Below, in pieces: positions 24,469-35,378 of a stretch of 64,000 nt of DNA (positions within the stretch are counted from its first letter, which is position 1; each line of letters begins with the position of its first letter). Under the pieces are notes generated by a model. The model worked only from the letters and a program-made list of their open reading frames with translations. It ran no database searches and was not told where the DNA came from. The stretch covers positions 1 through 64,000 of the forward strand of contig CAILEM010000009.1 in NCBI GenBank assembly GCA_903833215.1. The letters are read 5' to 3'. This DNA is from an uncultured Armatimonadota bacterium. Lineage in GTDB: Bacteria > Armatimonadota > Fimbriimonadia > Fimbriimonadales > Fimbriimonadaceae. Made by a program: the position numbers and the translations under genes.

Positions 24469-25209
24469 ATGAACAGTGTCTGGGAGACAAGAACTGCGGC
24501 TTCGCTGGACGACCTCGCCATCCGCATTCGCCCGACGATCGAGCGATATGTTGGAAAGCGGGTGCGGAATGTCGACCACCGCGACGAGATTGTCAGTCGA
24601 GTATTTGAGGCCCTAACTCGATCTTGGCCCAGCTTTCGCGGAGAGTGTCCTCCGGATGCCTATGTCGTTCGCATCGCCTCAAACGCACTGAAAAATTACT
24701 ACGAGCGTGACCTTGCCCGGCACTCTAGACAAATTTCACTCGATATTTGGTGTGAAGAGTTTTGCCTGCAACAGAATACGGCCTCTCCGGGTCCTGATGT
24801 AGAGGTTCACCAGCGCGACGAGGCCGAAGGGCTGATTCGGGAGATGCAGAAAGTATGCTCCCCCATCGAGTGTGCGGTGGTTGAACTCGTGTACCAAGGG
24901 AATACCATGGACGAAATCGCAACGCTGCTCGCACTCAACGCAGCCACAGTAAGGAGTCATTTCCTTCGTGGTCGCGAGAGGCTGCTGGCACACCTGCTTG
25001 TCGAAGCTCCTGATTATTTGGGGGGTATGGATGCGGTGCGTGGCGCGATTCGGCGATTGGAAACCGGTGCAGGAACAGATTTGTCGAAAGAGGAAGCGGA
25101 AGCTGTCTTGCTACGAAAGGGCCCAGCCGTGACGCTGAGGAAAGCGATGTTGAAGTTAGCACCCTATCTTGGGGTCATCGCTTTAATCGCCCTAGAGGTA
25201 CGTAGATGA
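24469..25209 (+). CDS. ECF-type RNA polymerase sigma factor
   Basis: This 246-residue sigma-70 family member has sigma region 2 at about residues 20-85 (DEIVSRVFEALTRSWPSFRG...AYVVRIASNALKNYYER). Region 4 is at 120-176, with the helix-turn-helix VYQGNTMDEIATLLALNAATVRSHFLRGRERL. It lacks region 3, as ECF factors do. Unusually for the group it has ~70 further C-terminal residues, ending in a hydrophobic stretch LAPYLGVIALIALEV (about 230-244). Its stop overlaps the ATG of the anti-sigma gene by ATGA, so the two are translationally coupled. It probably recognises the TGCAAC...GTC elements found upstream of the five downstream paralogues (inference). Confidence 0.88.
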   Translation: MNSVWETRTAASLDDLAIRIRPTIERYVGKRVRNVDHRDEIVSRVFEALTRSWPSFRGECPPDAYVVRIASNALKNYYERDLARHSRQISLDIWCEEFCLQQNTASPGPDVEVHQRDEAEGLIREMQKVCSPIECAVVELVYQGNTMDEIATLLALNAATVRSHFLRGRERLLAHLLVEAPDYLGGMDAVRGAIRRLETGAGTDLSKEEAEAVLLRKGPAVTLRKAMLKLAPYLGVIALIALEVRR

Positions 25210-27122
25210 GGCGGCCGGAGGAAATCGAAGTGGGACGCCAAGAACGTAATTGGGGAGACGTGCTTCGCACGCGAACAGGAGACGATTGCGTTTCTGCGGA
25301 GGACCTGATCGCGTTCGTTGAAGCGCGCCTAGATCCAGCCTCGAGAATGACGGTGATTCAACACCTCGGCCATTGCGCTGGGTGTCGCGACACTGTGTTT
25401 CTCATGCGTGCCGCAGATCGCGCGGCGCAACCGAGAGCGCGTGGCATCCAGCGTTTTGCGGTAGGCCTGGGATTTGGCTTCGGTCTGGCGGTTGTGGCAG
25501 GAGCTCTGGTTATCGCGACGAATTTGTGGAGCCCCACAAAGGTAAATGGCGGTCAGGGGACTCCCGTTGCGATGAACGATCCAAAGATCACCCTGCAACC
25601 AAGTGTAGTAGAGACGAAGAAACCGGTGCCTCCAGTGACCACAGGAAACCCGGTAAAGCCAACGAACTCGAATCCCAAACCGCCAGCGCCAACTGCAGTC
25701 GGTTCGACGCCTAAAACTTCGCCTTCCGGAACAGGTAGCGGATCGCCGCCTAAAGTGACCGATTCCAAGCCCGCGCCTGTCAGTGGCCAAAAGAAGATTC
25801 CAGAGCCGTCGAAAGTGAATTCCAACCCGCCTGGTTTGTTTAATACCGAAACGAAGCGCGATCTGGTTGCTATGAACACGGGATCGGATACTTCGCAACG
25901 TGCGCTCAAGTTCTACTTGGTAGGACAGGAGCACGTTTACAGCATGGATTCGAAGGATGCACACCTTTCTGAGCGCCAAGGAATTGAGTTGGACTACGCG
26001 GAGAACGTCGCCAATATTCAAGCCGACTATAAGAAGGCTCTCGAATCGGGGGCAGACCCTGCTGGTGCCGCCGAGGACCTAACATCCTCCCTCCAGAAGG
26101 CAGCATCGGAGCGAGATGGCAAGCTCGGCGAACTCTACACCCCGGCCGACGATCAACGTGACGCGCATCCTGAACTTGTTGTCCAAGGTGACGCTCCCTA
26201 TCAAGTCGTCGAGGTCAAATATCATGGATCTGCAGTTGCGCCTGTCTTCGATAGTTATCAGGTACATGCGCCTTGGCCGGGATATGTGGTCGAGGATCGG
26301 CCCTATGGTTGGAGATATGGAGTCGTTTACACTCCCGACACTTTCAGGACAACCTATCGCACTTGGCACCGAGAATTCGTCGCGTCCGGTCGGACATTTA
26401 GCGGCCTTCGTGGTCACTCTGGGCACGTTGAGGCAGATTTGGTTGTGCAGGGACCCGGGAGATACGGGCTTCACTCGATGGCGGGAAGGAATATCGTGAG
26501 GTCTGGGGCGGCGTCGCCAGGAAGATATGGCTCGTCTTCGACGACTGCGGCTTCCCACTACGGTCGGTCGGCAACTCGGACATCCGGTACGTCCTCGGGC
26601 TATGGGCGTGCATCGGGCACTTCGTCTAGCATTTCGGGAAGCAAATACACGAAGTCCGCCCGAGTTGGCAGCTCGGGTTACGGCTCGGCGAAGTCCAGTA
26701 CGACAGCAGGTTCCTCAAGGTATAGCTCGAAACTTGGAACGGGTAACTCGACGTATGGAAGGGGCAACTCGACAGTGCGTACTTCAGCCTCAAACCGCTA
26801 TGGTGCGTCGACGTCTTCAGCCTCAGACCGATATTCGCATGGCAAAACTTCCACATCCGGGACCACCAGGTTGTCTGGTGGTACTAGGGGCTATAGTGGT
26901 GCGGCAAGGACGCCCGACAGGTCATCAGGATATGGCGTAGGCAGTACTCGACCGTCTGGTGGATCCATGAGGTCGAATCCGAGTTCTTCGCGCCCATCAG
27001 GTGGTAGCTTCTCTGGCGGCAGAACGGGTGGATCTTTCGGCGGTTCAAGGCCCGCCACACGAGGAACTTCAAACGGTTCTGCTCGCCCATCGGGTGGCAG
27101 CACAAGAAGTGGGCATCATTAA
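25206..27122 (+). CDS. Transmembrane anti-sigma factor with paralogue-type ectodomain and low-complexity tail
   Basis: This 638-residue protein has four parts. A cytoplasmic anti-sigma zinc-binding domain occupies residues ~25-70, with HxxxCxxC ligands His53, Cys57 and Cys60. A membrane helix lies at ~83-106 and a Pro/Lys/Thr-rich linker at ~110-230. Residues ~235-400 are the same domain as in the five downstream secreted proteins (KFYLVGQEHVYS, HPELVVQGDAPYQVVEVKYHG, APWPGYVVEDRPYGWRYGVVY). A ~230-residue Ser/Gly/Tyr/Arg tail with RYGSS-type repeats follows and ends SGHH. It is coupled to the sigma gene by a 4-base overlap. The extracytoplasmic copy could sense or bind the secreted paralogues; that function is inferred. 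Confidence 0.85.
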   Translation: MRRPEEIEVGRQERNWGDVLRTRTGDDCVSAEDLIAFVEARLDPASRMTVIQHLGHCAGCRDTVFLMRAADRAAQPRARGIQRFAVGLGFGFGLAVVAGALVIATNLWSPTKVNGGQGTPVAMNDPKITLQPSVVETKKPVPPVTTGNPVKPTNSNPKPPAPTAVGSTPKTSPSGTGSGSPPKVTDSKPAPVSGQKKIPEPSKVNSNPPGLFNTETKRDLVAMNTGSDTSQRALKFYLVGQEHVYSMDSKDAHLSERQGIELDYAENVANIQADYKKALESGADPAGAAEDLTSSLQKAASERDGKLGELYTPADDQRDAHPELVVQGDAPYQVVEVKYHGSAVAPVFDSYQVHAPWPGYVVEDRPYGWRYGVVYTPDTFRTTYRTWHREFVASGRTFSGLRGHSGHVEADLVVQGPGRYGLHSMAGRNIVRSGAASPGRYGSSSTTAASHYGRSATRTSGTSSGYGRASGTSSSISGSKYTKSARVGSSGYGSAKSSTTAGSSRYSSKLGTGNSTYGRGNSTVRTSASNRYGASTSSASDRYSHGKTSTSGTTRLSGGTRGYSGAARTPDRSSGYGVGSTRPSGGSMRSNPSSSRPSGGSFSGGRTGGSFGGSRPATRGTSNGSARPSGGSTRSGHH

Positions 27123-27184
27123 GCCGACGATCGGCGAAAGATGACACGTCCGTGGGTGACTTATCTCGAAGTCGAAAAAGGCAT

Positions 27185-27204
27185 AGACTCTACTGAGTCT
27201 CATT
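27185..27204 (+). terminator. Weak terminator after the anti-sigma gene
   Basis: AGACTC and GAGTCT form a 6-bp stem with loop TACT, followed by CATTTC. It lies between the anti-sigma stop and the first paralogue promoter. The hairpin is short, so partial read-through is likely. Confidence 0.35.
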
Positions 27205-27256
27205 TCAGGTGTCGCTTTGCGCGGAGTCGACCGTTTTTTGAAATTTAACAAATCCG

Positions 27257-27285
27257 TGCAACAGAACAGTCGGTCGCGGGTCCAT
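27257..27285 (+). promoter_or_regulatory. ECF-type promoter of paralogue A
   Basis: TGCAAC (27257-27262) is followed after 17 bases by GTCC (27280-27283); the ATG lies 36 bases after the GTC. The -35 AAC and -10 GTC cores are the usual ECF-sigma signatures, and the pair recurs upstream of all five paralogues. Confidence 0.7.
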
Positions 27286-27318
27286 AGAATTGAAGCCCAA
27301 GAGAGGGGGAATAGAGGA

Positions 27319-29421
27319 ATGAATACACACACAAAGACGTTAATCGCAGCGATAGGTGCTCTAGCATTTAGCGCGGCGCCAGCAGTCGCAAACGCGGAGC
27401 GCGTTTACTTCTTGGTCGGTACGAGACACATTTATCGGATCGGTACTTTTGAATACGCGCATGTCGAAGAGCGGCAGAAGATCGAGCAGGACTACGCCGA
27501 CCAGGTTGCCGCTGACCAGGAGCAGTTCAACAAAGCCGTAGCGGACGGGGCCGATCCAAACGCCGAAGGTCAGAACCTCAATGCTGCTCTTGATGATTTG
27601 GCTGAGGAGCGCGACAAAGAGCTAGGTGCAATTTATCAACGAGTGGATTTCGAGCGCGAGAGACACCCTGAGCTCCAGATAGAAGGTGATGGTCCCTATC
27701 AGGTCATGGGAATCAACTTCCACTGGCGAGGTGCCGTTCAGGTATTCGATAACTTCTATGTGTATGCCCCTTGGCCCGGCTACGTGGTCGAAACGAATCC
27801 CTACGGTTGGCGCTATGGCGTGGTCTACTCGCCGTATGAATTCCACCATGTTTACACGACATGGTACGGCGGTTACGTCTCGCTCGGGCGTCCAGCATTT
27901 ATTGGATTCTATGGCCATGAGGGTCCGATCCGATACGAGATTAATATCGGTGGTGGCAGTAGCTATCGGTTTGAGCGCCGTCACGTCGAGCGCCGTGAAG
28001 GATTTGAGCGTTCTGGTTACTTCCGAGGCGGAGGACGACTTGCTGAGAGGAGAATCGAGCGCGGTGCCGCCAGAGGCGGAGAAAGAGGCGGTGCCAGAGG
28101 CACCGATTCGAGAGGGACTGACCAGCGAGGTGGCAAAGGTGGCCGATACAGCAATGGCGGAAACACCACATCAAGCACCGGTGGAAATCGCGGAGGCAAC
28201 ACGGGTGGCCAGCGAGGGAACTCGTCTGGTGGCAGCAGAATTCTGAACCCAACCTCACCTAGCGGTGGCGCAAATGCCGGTGGCTCAGGTGGCCGCTATG
28301 GCAACGGCAATCGAAATTCGGGCTCCGGAGCCGGTTCAAACACAGGTTCGTTCGGTCGAGGCACGGGTGCTGGCGGTAATGCAACTGGCAACGCTGGAGC
28401 TGGCGGTACCGGTGGACGCTATGGCCGTGGTACAGATTCCACGGGATCGACGACTGGGTCGACAACTGGTGGTTCAGGACGCGGAACAGGCTCCACAGGC
28501 GCTGGCACCGGTGGTAGATCGACCGGCTCTACAACGGGTGGCTACGGAAGAGGCACTGGATCGACGGGTTCGACGACTGGCTCAACAACCGGTGGATATG
28601 GCCGGGGAACAGGTACCACTGGCGCTGGCACCGGTGGTAGATCCACCGGTTCAACAACTGGTGGGTACGGGCGTGGAACAAGCTCCACCGGTGCTGGCAC
28701 TGGTGGTGGATCCACAGGTTCTACCACTGGTGGACGCTACGGACGTGGTACAGATTCAACTGGATCGACGACTGGATCAACGACAGGTGGATATGGCCGT
28801 GGAACGGGTACCACAGGCTCCGGCACTGGTGGTAGATCCACAGGTTCGACCACCGGTGGTTACGGACGAGGCACTGGCTCGACGGGTTCGACGACTGGCT
28901 CAACAACCGGCGGTTATGGCCGTGGAACAGGTTCAAGCGCCGGTGGTAGCACCGGCGGTAGATCCACAGGTTCTACGACCGGTGGTTACGGACGAGGGAC
29001 TGGGTCGGCGGGATCGACGACTGGTTCAACAACGGGTGGCTATGGACGTGGAACAGGTTCAAGCGCGGGTGGTAACACTGGCGGTAGATCCACAGGTTCT
29101 ACGACTGGTGGTTACGGACGAGGCACTGGATCGGCAGGATCGACGACTGGTTCAACAACCGGTGGATACGGACGTGGAACAGGTTCAAGCACGGGTGGAC
29201 GTTCGACGGGTTCCTCAACCGGTAGCTTTGGTCGAGGCACAGGCTCTACTGGGTCGATCGGTGGCAGTAGCCGCACATCGAGCCCATCGGGTGGTAGCTT
29301 TGGCCGCGGTAGCTCCGCTGGATCCGCTCCACGAATGACCCCTCCGACACCTCCACGCAGCGCCCCGCCAGCTTCGGCTCCACGCAGCGCTCCTCCAACG
29401 CCTCGAAAGAAGGGCCACTAG
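27319..29421 (+). CDS. Secreted paralogue A with Gly/Thr/Ser-rich repetitive tail
   Basis: This 700-residue protein is not a named family that I know. Signal peptide ~1-26 (ends PAVANA). The conserved domain spans ~27-208: FLVGTRHIYRIG; RQKIEQDYADQVAADQEQFNKAV; LDDLAEERDKELG; HPELQIEGDGPYQVMGINFH; APWPGYVVETNPYGWRYGVVYSP. A basic linker (RRHVERREG) and then a ~430-residue tail of near-repeats TGGYGRGTGS/STTGSTTGGYGRGT follow, and the end is proline-rich and closes with KKGH. The frame starts earlier, but ATG 27319 gives the signal peptide and sits after AGAGG. It is likely a wall, sheath or matrix protein (inference). Confidence 0.85.
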   Translation: MNTHTKTLIAAIGALAFSAAPAVANAERVYFLVGTRHIYRIGTFEYAHVEERQKIEQDYADQVAADQEQFNKAVADGADPNAEGQNLNAALDDLAEERDKELGAIYQRVDFERERHPELQIEGDGPYQVMGINFHWRGAVQVFDNFYVYAPWPGYVVETNPYGWRYGVVYSPYEFHHVYTTWYGGYVSLGRPAFIGFYGHEGPIRYEINIGGGSSYRFERRHVERREGFERSGYFRGGGRLAERRIERGAARGGERGGARGTDSRGTDQRGGKGGRYSNGGNTTSSTGGNRGGNTGGQRGNSSGGSRILNPTSPSGGANAGGSGGRYGNGNRNSGSGAGSNTGSFGRGTGAGGNATGNAGAGGTGGRYGRGTDSTGSTTGSTTGGSGRGTGSTGAGTGGRSTGSTTGGYGRGTGSTGSTTGSTTGGYGRGTGTTGAGTGGRSTGSTTGGYGRGTSSTGAGTGGGSTGSTTGGRYGRGTDSTGSTTGSTTGGYGRGTGTTGSGTGGRSTGSTTGGYGRGTGSTGSTTGSTTGGYGRGTGSSAGGSTGGRSTGSTTGGYGRGTGSAGSTTGSTTGGYGRGTGSSAGGNTGGRSTGSTTGGYGRGTGSAGSTTGSTTGGYGRGTGSSTGGRSTGSSTGSFGRGTGSTGSIGGSSRTSSPSGGSFGRGSSAGSAPRMTPPTPPRSAPPASAPRSAPPTPRKKGH
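28430..29260 (+). repeat. Coding tandem repeats in paralogue A
   Basis: About 830 bases inside paralogue A consist of diverged tandem units, each encoding variants of GGYGRGTGSTGSTTGSTTG or GTGGRSTGSTTGGYGRGT. Wobble-position differences between copies show that the peptide pattern is conserved more strictly than the DNA. All other frames also stay open for long stretches, giving false overlapping open frames. Confidence 0.9.
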
Positions 29422-29442
29422 GGCGCAAAGGTAGGCGACTGA

Positions 29443-29480
29443 ATCGAGTCCGGGTTTAAACCTGGGCTCGATTTGGGTTT
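29443..29480 (+). terminator. Terminator after paralogue A
   Basis: ATCGAGTCCGGGTTT pairs with AAACCTGGGCTCGAT (two G-T pairs) in a near-palindromic hairpin, followed by TTGGGTTTCTGTTT. It starts 21 bases after the stop codon. Confidence 0.7.
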
Positions 29481-29519
29481 CTGTTTGTCGAGCCAAAATT
29501 TCGAAAATTCTTACAGACG

Positions 29520-29548
29520 TGCAACAACCGATCCGCTTGCGGGTCTTT
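29520..29548 (+). promoter_or_regulatory. ECF-type promoter of paralogue B
   Basis: TGCAAC (29520-29525), 17-base spacer, then GTCT (29543-29546). The GTC is 35 bases before the ATG. The element matches those before paralogues A, C, D and E. Confidence 0.7.
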
Positions 29549-29580
29549 CACAATGAACCCTAGAGAGGGGTAGTAGAGGA

Positions 29581-30732
29581 ATGAATATTTATACAAAGAC
29601 GTTAATTGCTGCACTGGGTGCCGTCACTTTCGCCGCGTTACCAACTGCTGCACATGCAGATCGCGCATATTTCTTGGTAGGTATGCGGCATATCTACCGC
29701 ATTGGAGCGAGCCGACACGCCGGTATGCAAGAGCGACAAAGGATCGAGCAAGACTATGCCGATCAAGTTGCCGCCGACCAAGAGCAATTCAATAAGGCAG
29801 TCGCAGAGGGTGCAGATCCGAAAGAAGAGAGCCCAAGACTGAATGCCGCGCTCGATGACTTGGCCGATCAGCGAGATAAAGAGCTGTCAACCCTGTATCC
29901 CAACGCAGATTGGGTTCGCCAGCGCCAACCAGAATTGGTTGTGGAAAGCGATGGGCCCTATCAAGTTGTAGGTGTGAATTTCCACATGGAAGGTGGCTAC
30001 TCTAAATTTGATAGCTATACAATCTATAAGCCTTGGCCCGACTATCCCATCGATGAAAACCCCTATGGTTGGAGATACAACATCGCCTACACACCCTCTG
30101 GGTTGCGTGCAAAGTATTTAGAGTGGTCAGGTCGGTTTGCTCCTGAAGAGCGGCCCGTTTTTGTCGGTCTCTACGGCGCATCAGCTCCGGTTGTTTACGA
30201 GATCCGGGTAGCCCATGAGTATCGCTTTGTCCGCGAGTATCACCGACACCACGTGGACTTCGAGCGGACGAACTACTATCGAGGGCGCGGCTCCTTGAGA
30301 GAGCGCCGACATAGCCTTCCGCCACGAAGAGTCATCGGTGGACCCGGTGGAGCCGTACGTCCTGGCGGACCTGGTGGGGTCATTCGCCCTGGCGGACCTG
30401 GCGGAGTCGTTCGACCTGGTGGCCCCGGTGGAGTGATTCGCCCTGGTGGACCTGGGAGTGAAGTTCGACCAGGTGGGCCTGGCGGAGTCGTTCGCCCAGG
30501 TGGGTCAGGCGGCGTCATTCGGCCTGGTGGCCCAGGCAGTGATGTGCGTCCTGGTGGACCTGGCGGAGTCGTTCGCCCAGGTGGGCCAGGCGGAGTGATT
30601 CGACCTGGTGGCCCTGGCGGAGTCATTCGTCCCGGCGGACCTACTGGCGGCCACTTGCCTAGTGCGGGGAGCCGACCACCACGCGGGTCTGTGCCGCCGC
30701 ACGTCGATCCACCCAAGAAGAAGAAAGGCTAG
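29581..30732 (+). CDS. Secreted paralogue B with collagen-like RPGGPGG tail
   Basis: This 383-residue protein has the signal peptide MNIYTKTLIAALGAVTFAALPTAAHA and the conserved domain at ~27-215 (YFLVGMRHIYRIG; QRIEQDYADQVAADQEQFNKAV; QPELVVESDGPYQVVGVNFHMEGG; PWPDYPIDENPYGWRYNIAY). This copy is the most divergent: PWPDY replaces PWPGY and an ExAPV segment is altered. The tail has 11 copies of a nonapeptide VIRPGGPGG-type unit and ends in DPPKKKKG. The start ATG follows an AGAGG site. Own promoter and strong terminator, so it is monocistronic. Confidence 0.85.
   Translation: MNIYTKTLIAALGAVTFAALPTAAHADRAYFLVGMRHIYRIGASRHAGMQERQRIEQDYADQVAADQEQFNKAVAEGADPKEESPRLNAALDDLADQRDKELSTLYPNADWVRQRQPELVVESDGPYQVVGVNFHMEGGYSKFDSYTIYKPWPDYPIDENPYGWRYNIAYTPSGLRAKYLEWSGRFAPEERPVFVGLYGASAPVVYEIRVAHEYRFVREYHRHHVDFERTNYYRGRGSLRERRHSLPPRRVIGGPGGAVRPGGPGGVIRPGGPGGVVRPGGPGGVIRPGGPGSEVRPGGPGGVVRPGGSGGVIRPGGPGSDVRPGGPGGVVRPGGPGGVIRPGGPGGVIRPGGPTGGHLPSAGSRPPRGSVPPHVDPPKKKKG
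30340..30650 (+). repeat. Coding nonapeptide repeats in paralogue B
   Basis: About 11 tandem 27-base units encode [VI]xRPGGPGG variants; the second residue before R alternates Val/Ile with occasional Glu or Asp. The antisense strand reads PPGPPGR, a collagen-like look that is only a shadow of the sense repeat. Confidence 0.9.
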
Positions 30733-30757
30733 ATCCTCTCAATCAAATAGGGGCATG

Positions 30758-30805
30758 AGAGCTGGGCTCAGGCTACGACCTGAGCCCAGCTCTTGTTTGT
30801 TTGCG
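30758..30805 (+). terminator. Terminator after paralogue B
   Basis: A perfect 15-bp stem (AGAGCTGGGCTCAGG with its complement) around loop CTACGA is followed by TGTTTGTTTG. Strong rho-independent terminator form. Confidence 0.9.
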
Positions 30806-30946
30806 TCAGGAAAGGTGCGAGTCGTTGGGATGAACTGCTTTCACAGATCGAGACAACAGAAAGTTTGGGATTGACCAACTCCCTCGGTTACTTGGATTGA
30901 CCGGAAAAAGCTTTTCTGGATGAGTTCAGATTATTTCCTGTGTACC

Positions 30947-30975
30947 TGCAACAAGAAAATCACAACCGTGTCCTT
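30947..30975 (+). promoter_or_regulatory. ECF-type promoter of paralogue C
   Basis: TGCAAC (30947-30952), 17-base spacer, GTCC (30970-30973). The GTC is 36 bases before the ATG at 31009, as in paralogues A and E. Confidence 0.7.
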
Positions 30976-31008
30976 CCTCAATGAAGCCTAGAGAGGGGTA
31001 ATTGGGGA

Positions 31009-32373
31009 ATGAATAGATACAGCAAGACATTAATCGCAGCGCTGGGAGCGCTTGCATTCACTGCCGTGCCAGCAGCGGCAAACGCCGAACGCGTTTTCTT
31101 TTTGGTTGGCACCCGCCACGTATATCGAATTGGCACCTCCGAATATGAAAATGTTGAAGCGCGACAGAAAATCGAGCAAGACTACGCAGATCAGGTCGCT
31201 GCCGACCAAGAGCAGTTCAACAAGGCAGTCGCAGATGGTGCAGATGCTCATGCTGAGGGACAGAATCTGAATGCGGCACTCGATGACTTAGCCGAAGAGC
31301 GAGATAAAGAGTTAGGGGCACTCTACGAGCAGGTTGACTGGGAACGGGAAAGTCATCCAGAACTTCAGATTGAGGGAGACGGCCCTTACCAGGTAATGGG
31401 AATCAACTTTCATATGCGCGGCGCCGTCCAAGTATTCGAGAGTTTTAATGTCTTTGCACCTTGGCCAGGCTATGAAGTTGTCGAGCGGCCCTACGGATGG
31501 GAATACGGCGTGGCTTACACGCCAGCTGAGTTTCACCAAGTGTACGCTGGCTGGTACGGAAGCTACGTGGAAGCCGGACGCCCAGTCTTTATCGGCATCT
31601 ACGGTCACGAAGGTCCGGTCCGATACGAGATCCATGGCGGCAGTGGATATCGATTTGAGCGACGGCATATTGCACATCGAGAAGGATTTGAGCGCTCGCC
31701 TTACTTTCGAGGACATGGACCACTTGGCGAGCGAAAAGTTGAGCGAATTCACAATGGCACCCGGGGCCACGAGTCGACGAGTGCCGATCGGGGCAGCCGC
31801 TACTCGAATCACAAGAACGTCAGCAGCTCGAACGTATCGGGAAATCATCTACTGAGTCACGATTCAACAAGTGACAAGAACCATGATCGCTTAAGAACAT
31901 CGGAATCGAAAACGTCAGATGCATCCCATAGTCGATACACGAGTAAGCAAAGTCAAGCATCGGATACGCGAACAACAGCTGCATCGCGCAACAACGATCG
32001 AATCGTCGCTCCGGCGTCTGAACACAATGCGCCCATTTACAGCCATGAGTCCAAGGTAAAGACTCACGAAGAAAAGACAACAACTTACAATCGTGGCGCG
32101 CAGAAATCGACTCGAGAGGAGCCTGCTTCTACCTACAATCGTGGTGCGCAGAAGTCAACTCGCGGAGAAACAACGCCAAGCTACAACCGTCAACCTGTGA
32201 ACACCCTGCGGGAACGGGAGACGAACCGACCATCCCCCACAAACCCGGTGCGCACACCATCAACGAACCAAACGCAAAGGATCCCAAGTGCGCCGCAACA
32301 TGTCTCCGCACCAATAGTTCCACGCACGCCACCCGTGCATATCGCTCCACCGGCCCGACACAGGAAGGGCTAG
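31009..32373 (+). CDS. Secreted paralogue C with Asn/Ser/Thr/Arg-rich tail
   Basis: This 454-residue protein has signal peptide MNRYSKTLIAALGALAFTAVPAAANA. The conserved domain at ~27-210 closely resembles paralogue A (FLVGTRHVYRIG; RQKIEQDYADQVAADQEQFNKAV; HPELQIEGDGPYQVMGINFHMRGAV). Instead of glycine-rich repeats, the tail is polar: SSNVSGNH, many Ser/Thr/Asn/His/Lys, two copies of TYNRGAQKSTR, then a Pro/Thr-rich region ending PPARHRKG. It has its own promoter and terminator. Function unknown; it is a tail variant of the family. Confidence 0.85.
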   Translation: MNRYSKTLIAALGALAFTAVPAAANAERVFFLVGTRHVYRIGTSEYENVEARQKIEQDYADQVAADQEQFNKAVADGADAHAEGQNLNAALDDLAEERDKELGALYEQVDWERESHPELQIEGDGPYQVMGINFHMRGAVQVFESFNVFAPWPGYEVVERPYGWEYGVAYTPAEFHQVYAGWYGSYVEAGRPVFIGIYGHEGPVRYEIHGGSGYRFERRHIAHREGFERSPYFRGHGPLGERKVERIHNGTRGHESTSADRGSRYSNHKNVSSSNVSGNHLLSHDSTSDKNHDRLRTSESKTSDASHSRYTSKQSQASDTRTTAASRNNDRIVAPASEHNAPIYSHESKVKTHEEKTTTYNRGAQKSTREEPASTYNRGAQKSTRGETTPSYNRQPVNTLRERETNRPSPTNPVRTPSTNQTQRIPSAPQHVSAPIVPRTPPVHIAPPARHRKG

Positions 32374-32402
32374 CGTCCTCAAAACTTGTTAGGAAACTCT
32401 CA

Positions 32403-32440
32403 GAAGGGTTCAGGCAATCGCCTGGACCCTCTTGGTTTTA
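32403..32440 (+). terminator. Terminator after paralogue C
   Basis: AAGGGTTCAGGC and GCCTGGACCCTC form a ~12-bp stem (one G-T pair) with loop AATC, followed by TTGGTTTTA. It starts 29 bases after the stop. Confidence 0.8.
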
Positions 32441-32475
32441 GGAATAATCGAAAAGTAGAAAATTGTTGAGAGACT

Positions 32476-32504
32476 TGCAACAAAGGGCAGCGCGATGTGT
32501 CCTC
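32476..32504 (+). promoter_or_regulatory. ECF-type promoter of paralogue D
   Basis: TGCAAC (32476-32481), 17-base spacer, GTCC (32499-32502). The GTC is 38 bases before the favoured ATG at 32540. Confidence 0.7.
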
Positions 32505-32539
32505 TGAATCGTAGCCCTGAGATGGAGGCACAAAAAGTT

Positions 32540-34099
32540 ATGAAACTATCACCGAAAATACTGATCGCCGCGGTCGGGGCATTTTTGTTCTGTGCCGCAC
32601 CGGCAATAGCAAACGCGGAGCGCGTTTATTTTCTCGTCGGAACACGACACGTCTTTCGAATTGGTCAAGACCAGTACGCTCATGTCGAAGACAGGCAGAA
32701 GATCGAGCAAGATTACGCAGATCAAGTTGCCGCAGATCATGAGGAGTTTAACAAGGCTGTAGACGGCGGAGCTGATCCTGACAAGGAAACTGCAGACCTA
32801 AACAACGCTCTTGGCGAAATTGCAGAACAGCGTGACCAGCAGCTTGGCGCCATTTATGAGAACGCCGATTATGAGAGGGATCGTCACCCAGAGCTTCGAA
32901 TCGATGGAGATGGTCCTTACCAAGTCATTGGCGTCACGTATCACCGTCGTGCAAACATCGAGGTCTATGATAACTTTGTTGTGTACGCTCCTTGGCCCGG
33001 TTATACCGTTGTGGACGTCCCCTATGGCTGGTCCTATGGAGTCGTTTACTCGCCGTTCGCTTTTGTAAATGTTTACATGGGTTGGCATTCTCACTGGTTC
33101 GAATTGGGTTGCCCAGCGTTCGTAGGCTTCTATGGCTTCGGCGGCGAAATCGTGATTGGCGGATTCTCAAGGGGCCCACGCGGTAGTCTCGTTCGAGTGA
33201 TCGGTCACGGCGGTGGAGGAGCACACTATCGTAACGGTGGCCATATCCGCACAGTGGGTGGTGGTTCTCGATTCGGCAACGGTGGCCGTGGTGCCGTGAT
33301 CGGACGTTCGTCTTCGAGATATGGCGGTGGTCGGACTGGCGGCGGAGTTGGTCGCTCAACGTCTCGGTATGGATCCGGACGAACAACATCTACCACAGGT
33401 GGACGGTCGACCTCTCGCTATGGCGGCGGGCGAACGAACTCTACTCTGGGTACAGGGCGAACGACCTCGCGATACGGCTCTGGCCGCACAACTTCCACAA
33501 CAACCGGTCGAACGACTTCTCGCTACGGATCTTCTACGAACGCGAATGGTCGAACCACGTCACGTTATGGAGCCGGTAATACGACAGCGAATTCTGGGAT
33601 CGGGCGATCAACATCCCGATACGGAACGGGACGCACCACCTCGACCTACGGTTCGGGCAGAAGCACCAGTAGCTCGACCGGTGGCAGGATGACTGCCAAC
33701 TCCGGCACCGGAAGAAGCACATCTGGTTATGGTTCTGGTCGAAATACCACTGGAATCTCGACGGGAAGGTCCACCTCTAGCTATGGCGCCGGACGAAACT
33801 CCTCTGGCGTGACATCCGGTCGAGCATCTTCAGGCTATGGCTCGGGTCGTTCGACATCCGCAGGATCGGGCACTCGCTCAACTTCCGGATTCAGCACAGG
33901 ACGATCAGGTGGCGGCTTTGGCGGGGGGCGTCCTAGCGCACCGTCGATGAACCCAGGTCGGTCAGGCGGCAGCTTTGGCGGAGGTCGGCCAAGTGCACCA
34001 GCAATGAACCCCGGTCGATCGGGAGGCAGCTTTGGCGGAGGCAGCAGGCCATCAGCGCCTAGCCGGCCATCTGCTACACCACGACGCGGTCGAGGCTAA
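32540..34099 (+). CDS. Secreted paralogue D with SRYGSGRT-type tail
   Basis: This 519-residue protein has a signal peptide (MKLSPKILIAAVGAFLFCAAPAIANA) and the conserved domain (FLVGTRHVFRIG; RQKIEQDYADQVAADHEEFNKAV; HPELRIDGDGPYQVIGVTYHRRANI; APWPGYTVVDVPYGWSYGVVYSP). A glycine-rich linker leads to a tail of ~25 short units such as TSRYGSGRTTS. It ends in three GGSFGGGRPSAP units and RRGRG. An upstream ATG at 32522 is in frame, but the 32540 ATG follows GGAGG and gives the signal peptide. Tail units resemble those of the anti-sigma protein. Confidence 0.85.
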   Translation: MKLSPKILIAAVGAFLFCAAPAIANAERVYFLVGTRHVFRIGQDQYAHVEDRQKIEQDYADQVAADHEEFNKAVDGGADPDKETADLNNALGEIAEQRDQQLGAIYENADYERDRHPELRIDGDGPYQVIGVTYHRRANIEVYDNFVVYAPWPGYTVVDVPYGWSYGVVYSPFAFVNVYMGWHSHWFELGCPAFVGFYGFGGEIVIGGFSRGPRGSLVRVIGHGGGGAHYRNGGHIRTVGGGSRFGNGGRGAVIGRSSSRYGGGRTGGGVGRSTSRYGSGRTTSTTGGRSTSRYGGGRTNSTLGTGRTTSRYGSGRTTSTTTGRTTSRYGSSTNANGRTTSRYGAGNTTANSGIGRSTSRYGTGRTTSTYGSGRSTSSSTGGRMTANSGTGRSTSGYGSGRNTTGISTGRSTSSYGAGRNSSGVTSGRASSGYGSGRSTSAGSGTRSTSGFSTGRSGGGFGGGRPSAPSMNPGRSGGSFGGGRPSAPAMNPGRSGGSFGGGSRPSAPSRPSATPRRGRG

Positions 34100-34123
34100 A
34101 GCTCTCAACTAGGAAAGAACAAG

Positions 34124-34161
34124 AAGAGCACCTGGGTCATTGCCCAGGTGCTCTTTTCTTT
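34124..34161 (+). terminator. Terminator after paralogue D
   Basis: AAGAGCACCTGGG pairs perfectly with CCCAGGTGCTCTT around loop TCATTG, followed by TTCTTTG. A strong rho-independent terminator, 24 bases after the stop. Confidence 0.9.
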
Positions 34162-34181
34162 GATAAAACTAAGTTTGGATC

Positions 34182-34211
34182 TGCAACAAGCTGAACCCGA
34201 TTTGTGTCCTT
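34182..34211 (+). promoter_or_regulatory. ECF-type promoter of paralogue E
   Basis: TGCAAC (34182-34187), 18-base spacer, GTCC (34206-34209). The spacer is one base longer than in the other four. The GTC is 36 bases before the ATG at 34244. Confidence 0.65.
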
Positions 34212-34243
34212 CAAAATGTAACTCGGAATGGAGGAGAGATCTG

Positions 34244-35314
34244 ATGGGTAATGGTTTGAGAGCCTTGATAGTTGCATGCGGAGCGCTGATGATTGCAGCG
34301 GCACCCGCAATCGCACATGCAGAACGCGTGTATTTTCTTGTCGGTCCACGCCACGTTTATCGGATAGGGCAGTACCAATATGCACACCTTGCTGATCGAC
34401 AGAAGATCGAGCAGGAGTATGCAGACCAGGTCGCTGCGGATCAGGATCAATTCAACAAGGCCGTCGAGAGCGGTGCGGACCCAGCTGTGGAATCGCCAGA
34501 ATTGAATAACGCGCTAGAAGATTTGGCAGTGAAGCGTGATCAGCAGTTAGGCTCGCTCTTCGAGCGTGTGGATTACATGCGCGGGCGACACCCTGAGCTT
34601 CGAATCGAAGGAGATGGTCCATACCAGGTGATCGGCATCAACTTTCACTGGAGAGGGCCCGTCGAAGTCTTCGACGACTTTGTTGTCTATGCACCTTGGC
34701 CAGGCTATGTGGTGGTGGGTCATCCGTATGGCTGGGAGTATGGTGTTGTATACAATCCATTTCGCTTCCACCACGTCTACACAACTTGGTATGGCGGTTA
34801 CGTTTCCATCGGTCGACCTGCCTACGTGGGACTATATGGCTACCGTGGAGCGGTTCGAGTCGTTGGGTTTTCGAGGGGCCCTCGAGGAGTGATTTATTCA
34901 GGTCGCCCTCACGGTGGATCTTTCGGACATCGTGGACCGGTCGTTCGCCCAAGCTACGGGCGTGGTGGGGGTCGCATCTCAACCCACTCAGTTGGCCACG
35001 TACCGTCTCGTCCAAGCTATAGCGGTAGGCCTTCGTCTCGTACGAATTATGGGGGAAGTCGACCGACGTCTCATATCGGAGGCACGAGCCGACCGACATC
35101 ACACACAGGCTTCGGCGGATCGAGACCAACGTCCCACACCAGCTTTGGTGGGTCGAGGCCAACCTCGCATACGAGCATGGGTGGATCCGGTGGAGGCACA
35201 CGCGGCAGCTTCGGAGGCGCTAGATCTTCTGGCTCGTTCGGTGGTCGCAGCACGAGCACACACACATCTTCGGGCGGCCGCTCTAGTGGCGGATCGCGCG
35301 GTAGACGCGGCTAA
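34244..35314 (+). CDS. Secreted paralogue E with SRPTSHTGFGG-type tail
   Basis: This 356-residue protein has signal peptide MGNGLRALIVACGALMIAAAPAIAHA and the conserved domain at ~27-205 (FLVGPRHVYRIG; RQKIEQEYADQVAADQDQFNKAV; HPELRIEGDGPYQVIGINFHWRGPV; APWPGYVVVGHPYGWEYGVVYNP). The tail is the shortest (~140 residues): GRPHGGSFGHRG, then units of SRPTSHTxFGG, and an end rich in Ser/Gly closing with RGRRG. The ATG at 34244 follows GGAGGAGAG; an upstream in-frame ATG at 34148 precedes the promoter and is rejected. Confidence 0.85.
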   Translation: MGNGLRALIVACGALMIAAAPAIAHAERVYFLVGPRHVYRIGQYQYAHLADRQKIEQEYADQVAADQDQFNKAVESGADPAVESPELNNALEDLAVKRDQQLGSLFERVDYMRGRHPELRIEGDGPYQVIGINFHWRGPVEVFDDFVVYAPWPGYVVVGHPYGWEYGVVYNPFRFHHVYTTWYGGYVSIGRPAYVGLYGYRGAVRVVGFSRGPRGVIYSGRPHGGSFGHRGPVVRPSYGRGGGRISTHSVGHVPSRPSYSGRPSSRTNYGGSRPTSHIGGTSRPTSHTGFGGSRPTSHTSFGGSRPTSHTSMGGSGGGTRGSFGGARSSGSFGGRSTSTHTSSGGRSSGGSRGRRG

Positions 35315-35330
35315 GCACTGCTTGATTCAG

Positions 35331-35378
35331 TAGACAAAACGGGTTCTTGCTGAGGCAAGAACCCGTTTTGTCTATTTA
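35331..35378 (+). terminator. Terminator after paralogue E
   Basis: A perfect 20-bp stem (TAGACAAAACGGGTTCTTGC with its complement) closes on loop TGAG and is followed by TTTATG. It is the longest hairpin in the array. Confidence 0.9.

Follow-up and report, generated by a model that had tools for sequence, protein, structure and literature searches.

Here we describe a locus of about 11 kb in a 64,000-nucleotide stretch of DNA (the window) from contig CAILEM010000009.1 of an uncultured Armatimonadota bacterium (assembly GCA_903833215.1), whose genome comprises 6.2 Mb in 168 contigs and is 99.97 % complete. Brought together at this locus are the genes of an extracytoplasmic function (ECF) sigma factor and of its putative anti-sigma factor, five genes for secreted proteins that we call clients, and the predicted promoters of these clients (Table 1). 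The domain that the five clients share is found once more in the anti-sigma factor, on the far side of its predicted membrane segment.

The sigma factor scores 47.9 bits against TIGR02937 (cut-off 42.9) and 28.1 bits against Sigma70_r2 (cut-off 24), and region 4 is detected at a score under its cut-off. Having regions 2 and 4 only, together with a match to the superfamily profile, it belongs to the ECF group. Its C-terminal extension (window 25021-25206) ends in a hydrophobic segment, LKLAPYLGVIALIALEV (residues 226-244), the sequence of which is kept in the ortholog from a second genome of the genus (G004) and there lies under the threshold for a transmembrane (TM) helix; this segment may be a membrane tether. 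In both genomes the sigma and anti-sigma genes overlap by 4 bp, and the anti-sigma protein has an N-terminal motif of the form Hx3Cx2C (here HLGHCAGC) for which zinc binding is predicted, with zf-HC2 scoring 18.1 bits, below the cut-off. This motif, in a gene beside an ECF gene, places the protein in class I of the anti-sigma factors (ASDI). A single TM segment (residues 81-103) precedes the ectodomain, in which the family domain (DNA 25911-26450) is 45 % identical to the first client copy. The anti-sigma tails are basic here and in G004, with isoelectric points (pI) of 11.8 and 10.2.

Each of the five clients starts with a hydrophobic signal segment, at the end of which lies an AxA-type site. 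The shared domain that follows is about 180 residues long and in the other clients is 56-79 % identical to the first copy; a profile built from these same sequences matches it at E-values of 1e-87 to 1e-105. The client tails (149-490 residues) are also basic (pI 10.7-12.0), and their repeat types differ between copies. Compared with composition-preserving shuffles, RY[GSN] is enriched in the tails of clients 1 and 4, of the G004 client encoded beside the sigma gene, and of both anti-sigma factors; the same shuffles revealed no enrichment in clients 2, 3 and 5. The first-pass annotation, made from the letters of the DNA, had described precisely this layout: an ECF sigma gene overlapping an anti-sigma gene, five tandem homologous genes each with a signal peptide and its own low-complexity tail, and the same domain in the anti-sigma protein. 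Our analysis bears it out in each of these respects.

The same annotation had called the domain unnamed and had listed a Pfam or InterPro match to a well-described family among the results that would speak against its reading. Searches of Pfam and NCBIfam returned only sub-cut-off or chance matches, and FCH, Cor1 and DUF4136 were rejected as identities on this ground; DUF4136 (PF13590) was matched by one of 18 family members, at 20.4 bits against a cut-off of 32.8. Among PDB sequences the best match, at E 0.4, was FliJ, through coiled coil alone. Structure prediction, which had been proposed as a check, gave confident AlphaFold2 models of the client domain (predicted local distance difference test, pLDDT, 81; predicted template modelling score, pTM, 0.79) and of the anti-sigma ectodomain (pLDDT 86, pTM 0.80). 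Both have a short N-terminal beta hairpin, a long two-helix hairpin (residues 24-80 of the client model, about one third of the domain), a beta hairpin and a C-terminal helix in the same order; as both drew on the same 18 sequences, they are not independent. With the models searched, Foldseek found nothing at E<=0.001 in its PDB and viral sets, a result that does not prove a new fold, and the best VIA-align match (Z 4.9) covers mostly the helical hairpin. By these searches the ~180-residue domain is an undescribed family of a poorly studied phylum.

The promoters tie the clients to each other. TGCAACA-N16/17-GTC precedes all five client genes and ends 35-38 bp before the ATG, giving each the bipartite form typical of ECF promoters: a -35 box containing AAC, a GTC -10 box and a spacing of 16-17. 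The strict pattern, TGCAACAN{14,15}GKGTC, occurs at eight sites in the 6.2 Mb genome, five of which are those at the clients, compared to none for the reversed pattern that served as control. Leaving aside this genome and G004, the genus is represented by 18 genomes; they have no ortholog of the sigma factor and contain 0-3 strict sites each, 12 in total versus 19 for the control. Scored with a matrix that they themselves had built, the five sites outscore all 412 background segments, and the independent site at the G004 client does likewise. Between copies, synonymous sites are saturated (proportion of differences, pS, 0.75-0.91) and nonsynonymous differences are fewer (pN 0.11-0.41); the copies are thus old and the proteins under purifying selection. 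Such saturation means that unconstrained DNA has been randomised, and the bases between the promoter boxes differ in every copy, so the boxes themselves have been kept by selection. Recent duplication is thereby ruled out as the cause of the shared promoters.

Each client gene has its own promoter and its own terminator-like repeat, which rules out a single operon; the five genes look like five separate transcription units. Very probably it is this sigma factor that reads their promoters. A dedicated transcription unit had been proposed in the first-pass annotation. What stands of this proposal is the tie to the sigma factor, since an ECF-type motif precedes all eight clients of two genomes; what falls is the single unit, given the separate signals here and the presence in G004 of two clients on other contigs.

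Among 291 Armatimonadota genomes the domain is present in four, all of one genus. In G004 the sigma gene (60 % identical), the anti-sigma gene with its ectodomain and one client follow each other in conserved order, with the same right-hand neighbours as here (a RibD/DHFR-like gene and a 2-oxoacid:ferredoxin oxidoreductase gene). The two further G004 clients, on contigs C26 and C60, have a relaxed motif, GCAACA-N17-GTC. The relaxed pattern is found at 8/8 clients in the two sigma-bearing genomes versus 0/8 other family genes, a descriptive tally given that the pattern was partly fitted on the first group; it was not found at the family members of the remaining two genomes, G012 and G019. A second subfamily of six genes is without the ECF-type motif and unlinked to this sigma factor. 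In the tree it is recovered as a single clade (100/100) and the clients as another group (80/85); the anti-sigma domains branch outside the clients, at a position left unsure by their long branches. A scan over 84,980 species, seeded with close motifs only, returned G004 as the single relative, so that more distant relatives may exist outside the phylum; the plasmids and viral contigs searched contained no relative of the family.

The second-subfamily genes lie at L020 ~9397, L021 ~11231 and ~9241, L025 ~11320 and ~9771, and L027 ~9795, twice as tandem pairs. For all their unlike tails, nearly all clients of the two subfamilies, in the window and in L020-L028, close with a few basic residues and then Gly, Asn or His (RKKGH, KKKKG, RHRKG, RRGRG, GRRG, KKKGN), and the anti-sigma factors end in SGHH or SSGH. 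To judge from their sequence, the shared basic C-termini are a possible sorting or anchoring signal.

Table 1. Genes and predicted regulatory features of the locus (window positions)
Feature	Position	Strand	Description
ECF sigma factor, divergent, 246 aa	24469..25209	+	TIGR02937 and Sigma70_r2 over cut-off; G004 ortholog 60 % identical
Anti-sigma factor, single-pass, 638 aa	25206..27122	+	Hx3Cx2C, TM segment, Pro-rich linker, family domain, basic Ser/Gly/Arg tail
Client 1, 700 aa	27319..29421	+	Signal peptide, domain, 490-aa Gly/Thr/Ser/Arg tail with tandem repeats of ~123-126 bp
Client 2, 383 aa	29581..30732	+	Signal peptide, domain, tail of 9-residue GGPGGVxRP repeats (27-bp DNA unit)
Client 3, 454 aa	31009..32373	+	Signal peptide, domain, polar Ser/Arg/Thr/His/Lys tail without long repeats
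Client 4, 519 aa	32540..34099	+	Signal peptide, domain, SRYG-repeat tail
Client 5, 356 aa	34244..35314	+	Signal peptide, domain, SRPTSH-type tail
ECF-type promoter, client 1	27258..27282	+	GCAACA-N16-GTC; 36 bp 5' of ATG
ECF-type promoter, client 2	29521..29545	+	35 bp 5' of ATG
ECF-type promoter, client 3	30948..30972	+	36 bp 5' of ATG
ECF-type promoter, client 4	32477..32501	+	38 bp 5' of ATG
ECF-type promoter, client 5	34183..34208	+	Spacer 17; 35 bp 5' of ATG
Terminator-like hairpin 3' of client 1	29439..29476	+	Hairpin search
Terminator-like hairpin 3' of client 2	30755..30796	+	Hairpin search
Terminator-like hairpin 3' of client 3	32405..32430	+	Hairpin search
Terminator-like inverted repeat 3' of client 4	34124..34155	.	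T-run on both strands; - strand listed by the search, + strand read by eye
Terminator-like inverted repeat 3' of client 5	35332..35373	+	Read by eye; unlisted by the hairpin search

For clients 4 and 5 the most likely starts are 32540 and 34244 in place of the upstream open reading frame starts 32495 and 34148, because the promoters sit at or downstream of the latter. The first-pass annotation had let the locus end at 35378; the last coding sequence ends at 35314, and the difference takes in the inverted repeat 3' of client 5.

A strict motif match also occurs inside the sigma coding region (24767-24793), 413 bp 5' of the anti-sigma start. In G004 its GCAACA is kept and its GTC reads GAC. With the -10 box not kept there, and coding constraint sufficient to explain the match, it was rejected as the anti-sigma promoter; an internal promoter is conceivable. 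Another strict copy, at L039 (G000:C48:76639-76664), is followed after 36 bp, a distance matching that at the clients, by the ATG of a gene for a Cys-rich protein of 201 aa that has a TM segment. The motif was not seen at the homologs of this gene in G004 and G019; the Cys-rich membrane protein may thus be a sixth target, though in this genome alone.

The sequence gives good support to a small regulon of separately transcribed clients, which a dedicated ECF sigma/anti-sigma pair would control, and likewise to the set of genes, their promoters, the sharing of the domain and the conserved synteny. The best overall explanation, to which we give a probability of roughly 45 %, joins this regulon to an anti-sigma factor that, as a tethered homologue of the clients, reports on them. 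At rest, the Hx3Cx2C domain would hold the sigma factor at the inner membrane. The ectodomain, which has the folded domain of the clients and a basic tail like theirs, would amount to a client tethered to the membrane and should for this reason join in whatever interactions the clients enter. As long as clients are still unassembled in the envelope, they would bind and protect the anti-sigma factor, keeping the sigma factor off; once clients are drawn into extracellular material, the bare anti-sigma factor would be cleaved and the sigma factor released, which would switch all client genes on together, each from its own promoter. Release would presumably proceed by regulated proteolysis; the genome encodes peptidases of the M50 site-2-protease type, which are near-universal. 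Sensing of the clients themselves, in the direction proposed, is a tentative step that we hold at somewhat under even odds, and it is favoured because the anti-sigma factor resembles a whole client, tail included.

Several points weigh against this explanation. Its support comes from sequence and models, and the sequence gives no clue to the sign of the feedback. About 35 Sigma70_r2 matches in the genome mean that another sigma factor could read the motif. The relaxed motif at C26 and C60 has background p values of only 0.05 and 0.04, and it was to take in C60 that the pattern had been widened. Family members also occur in G012 and G019, which have no ortholog of this sigma factor; the family is thus able to exist without it. 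Neither here nor in G004 was the motif found upstream of the sigma gene; there is thus no sign of autoregulation, which we reject. Finally, sharing of the domain can equally mean a common external ligand, by analogy with RsgI.

RsgI proteins of Clostridium thermocellum bind substrates through their C-terminal extracellular domains (CBM3, CBM42, PA14, GH10), whereupon SigI is released and cellulosome genes are turned on (PMC12203970; also PMC6056542). Following this precedent, the shared domain would bind a polysaccharide, mineral or surface, which the anti-sigma factor detects and the clients bind, and the clients would not regulate the sigma factor. The two systems are alike in their N-terminal inhibitory region, single TM helix and extracellular sensor, and in serving several genes for secreted proteins through a shared promoter motif; the conserved aromatic, Pro and Gly motifs PWPGY and PYGW could make a binding surface. 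However, most RsgI sensors are carbohydrate-binding or enzyme domains of known kinds, and SigI and RsgI form separate families. At this locus we find an undescribed domain, an Hx3Cx2C inhibitory part and a shared client tail type, and such a basic tail would be needless in a ligand sensor. No RsgI model of Pfam or NCBIfam was hit by the anti-sigma factor, its partner is of ECF type with no SigI among the matches listed, and the ectodomain matched no carbohydrate-binding module (CBM), glycoside hydrolase (GH) or PA14 family. An external ligand is a possible explanation, with the odds against it.

An envelope stress response is unlikely. The clients would then be periplasmic helical-hairpin protectants in the role of Spy, CpxP or ZraP, and the ectodomain a similar protein that senses stress or metals. 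Many ECF pairs do serve stress responses, the predicted two-helix hairpin would suit such proteins, and VIA-align gave weak matches to ZraP (3lay; Z 3.9, root-mean-square deviation (rmsd) 3.3, 65 aligned) and CnrX (4wwf; Z 4.0, rmsd 3.8, 84 aligned). These Z values are, however, tied with those of unrelated coiled coils, helical pairs and designed bundles, the hairpin is a minor part of the domain, and long basic tails that are unlike in each copy are ill-suited to a small periplasmic chaperone. Very improbable is an ectodomain that arose as a by-product of gene fusion in the array and has no sensing role, the signal acting elsewhere: ectodomain and tail do adjoin the client genes, and no branches in their half of the tree are longer than those of the anti-sigma factors (0.86 and 1.64), but the ectodomain is kept in two diverged genomes with all 11 invariant columns intact, and its pN is well below the saturated pS against every client.

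The reporting anti-sigma factor that we prefer can be set beside other known pairs. According to the passages of PMC4255298 that cite Bibb et al. 2012, the Streptomyces pair sigma-BldN/RsbN controls the chaplin and rodlin coat proteins, and it resembles the present locus in its ECF sigma factor, adjacent fast-diverging anti-sigma factor and secreted surface-coat proteins. The overlap of anti-sigma and sigma genes sets the present locus apart. The rsbN gene has its own BldN-dependent promoter; to our knowledge, RsbN has no chaplin or rodlin domain and the Streptomyces coat proteins are unrelated to the family described here. With class I anti-sigma factors (PMC7406223) ours shares the Hx3Cx2C motif, membrane location and position beside an ECF gene, and it differs in that its ectodomain is homologous to the products of the regulon. 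By its sequence features, the locus thus belongs with the ECF/class I anti-sigma systems, its effector family being undescribed and its ectodomain taken from that family; we class it with neither SigI/RsgI nor BldN/RsbN.

What the clients build, which the first-pass annotation had taken to be a surface sheath, matrix or filament, may be suggested by composition. In a Gly-rich tick cement protein, spaced Arg and aromatic residues drive condensation and gelling (PMC11794139). The client tails likewise combine secreted, disordered Gly-rich sequence with spaced Arg and aromatics, although there is no homology and the analogy is one of composition only; the tick protein forms condensates and adhesive gels. 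The basic Gly/Ser/Thr/Arg tails would fit an adhesive or condensate-forming material, and we see about an even chance that the clients make up an adhesive matrix or coat.

Little is known of how bacteria sense the assembly of extracellular material, except in flagella, pili and cellulosomes. Here a candidate sensor is recognisably a copy of the products, and sensor, actuator, promoters and products all lie within 11 kb, providing a compact and testable regulon that also defines an undescribed domain family. It is possible, with the odds against it, that the anti-sigma factor is a tethered mimic, in both domain and tail, that gauges unassembled extracellular material and gives the sigma factor direct feedback on the state of its products. 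The cell may thus monitor the material that it secretes by means of a built-in look-alike.

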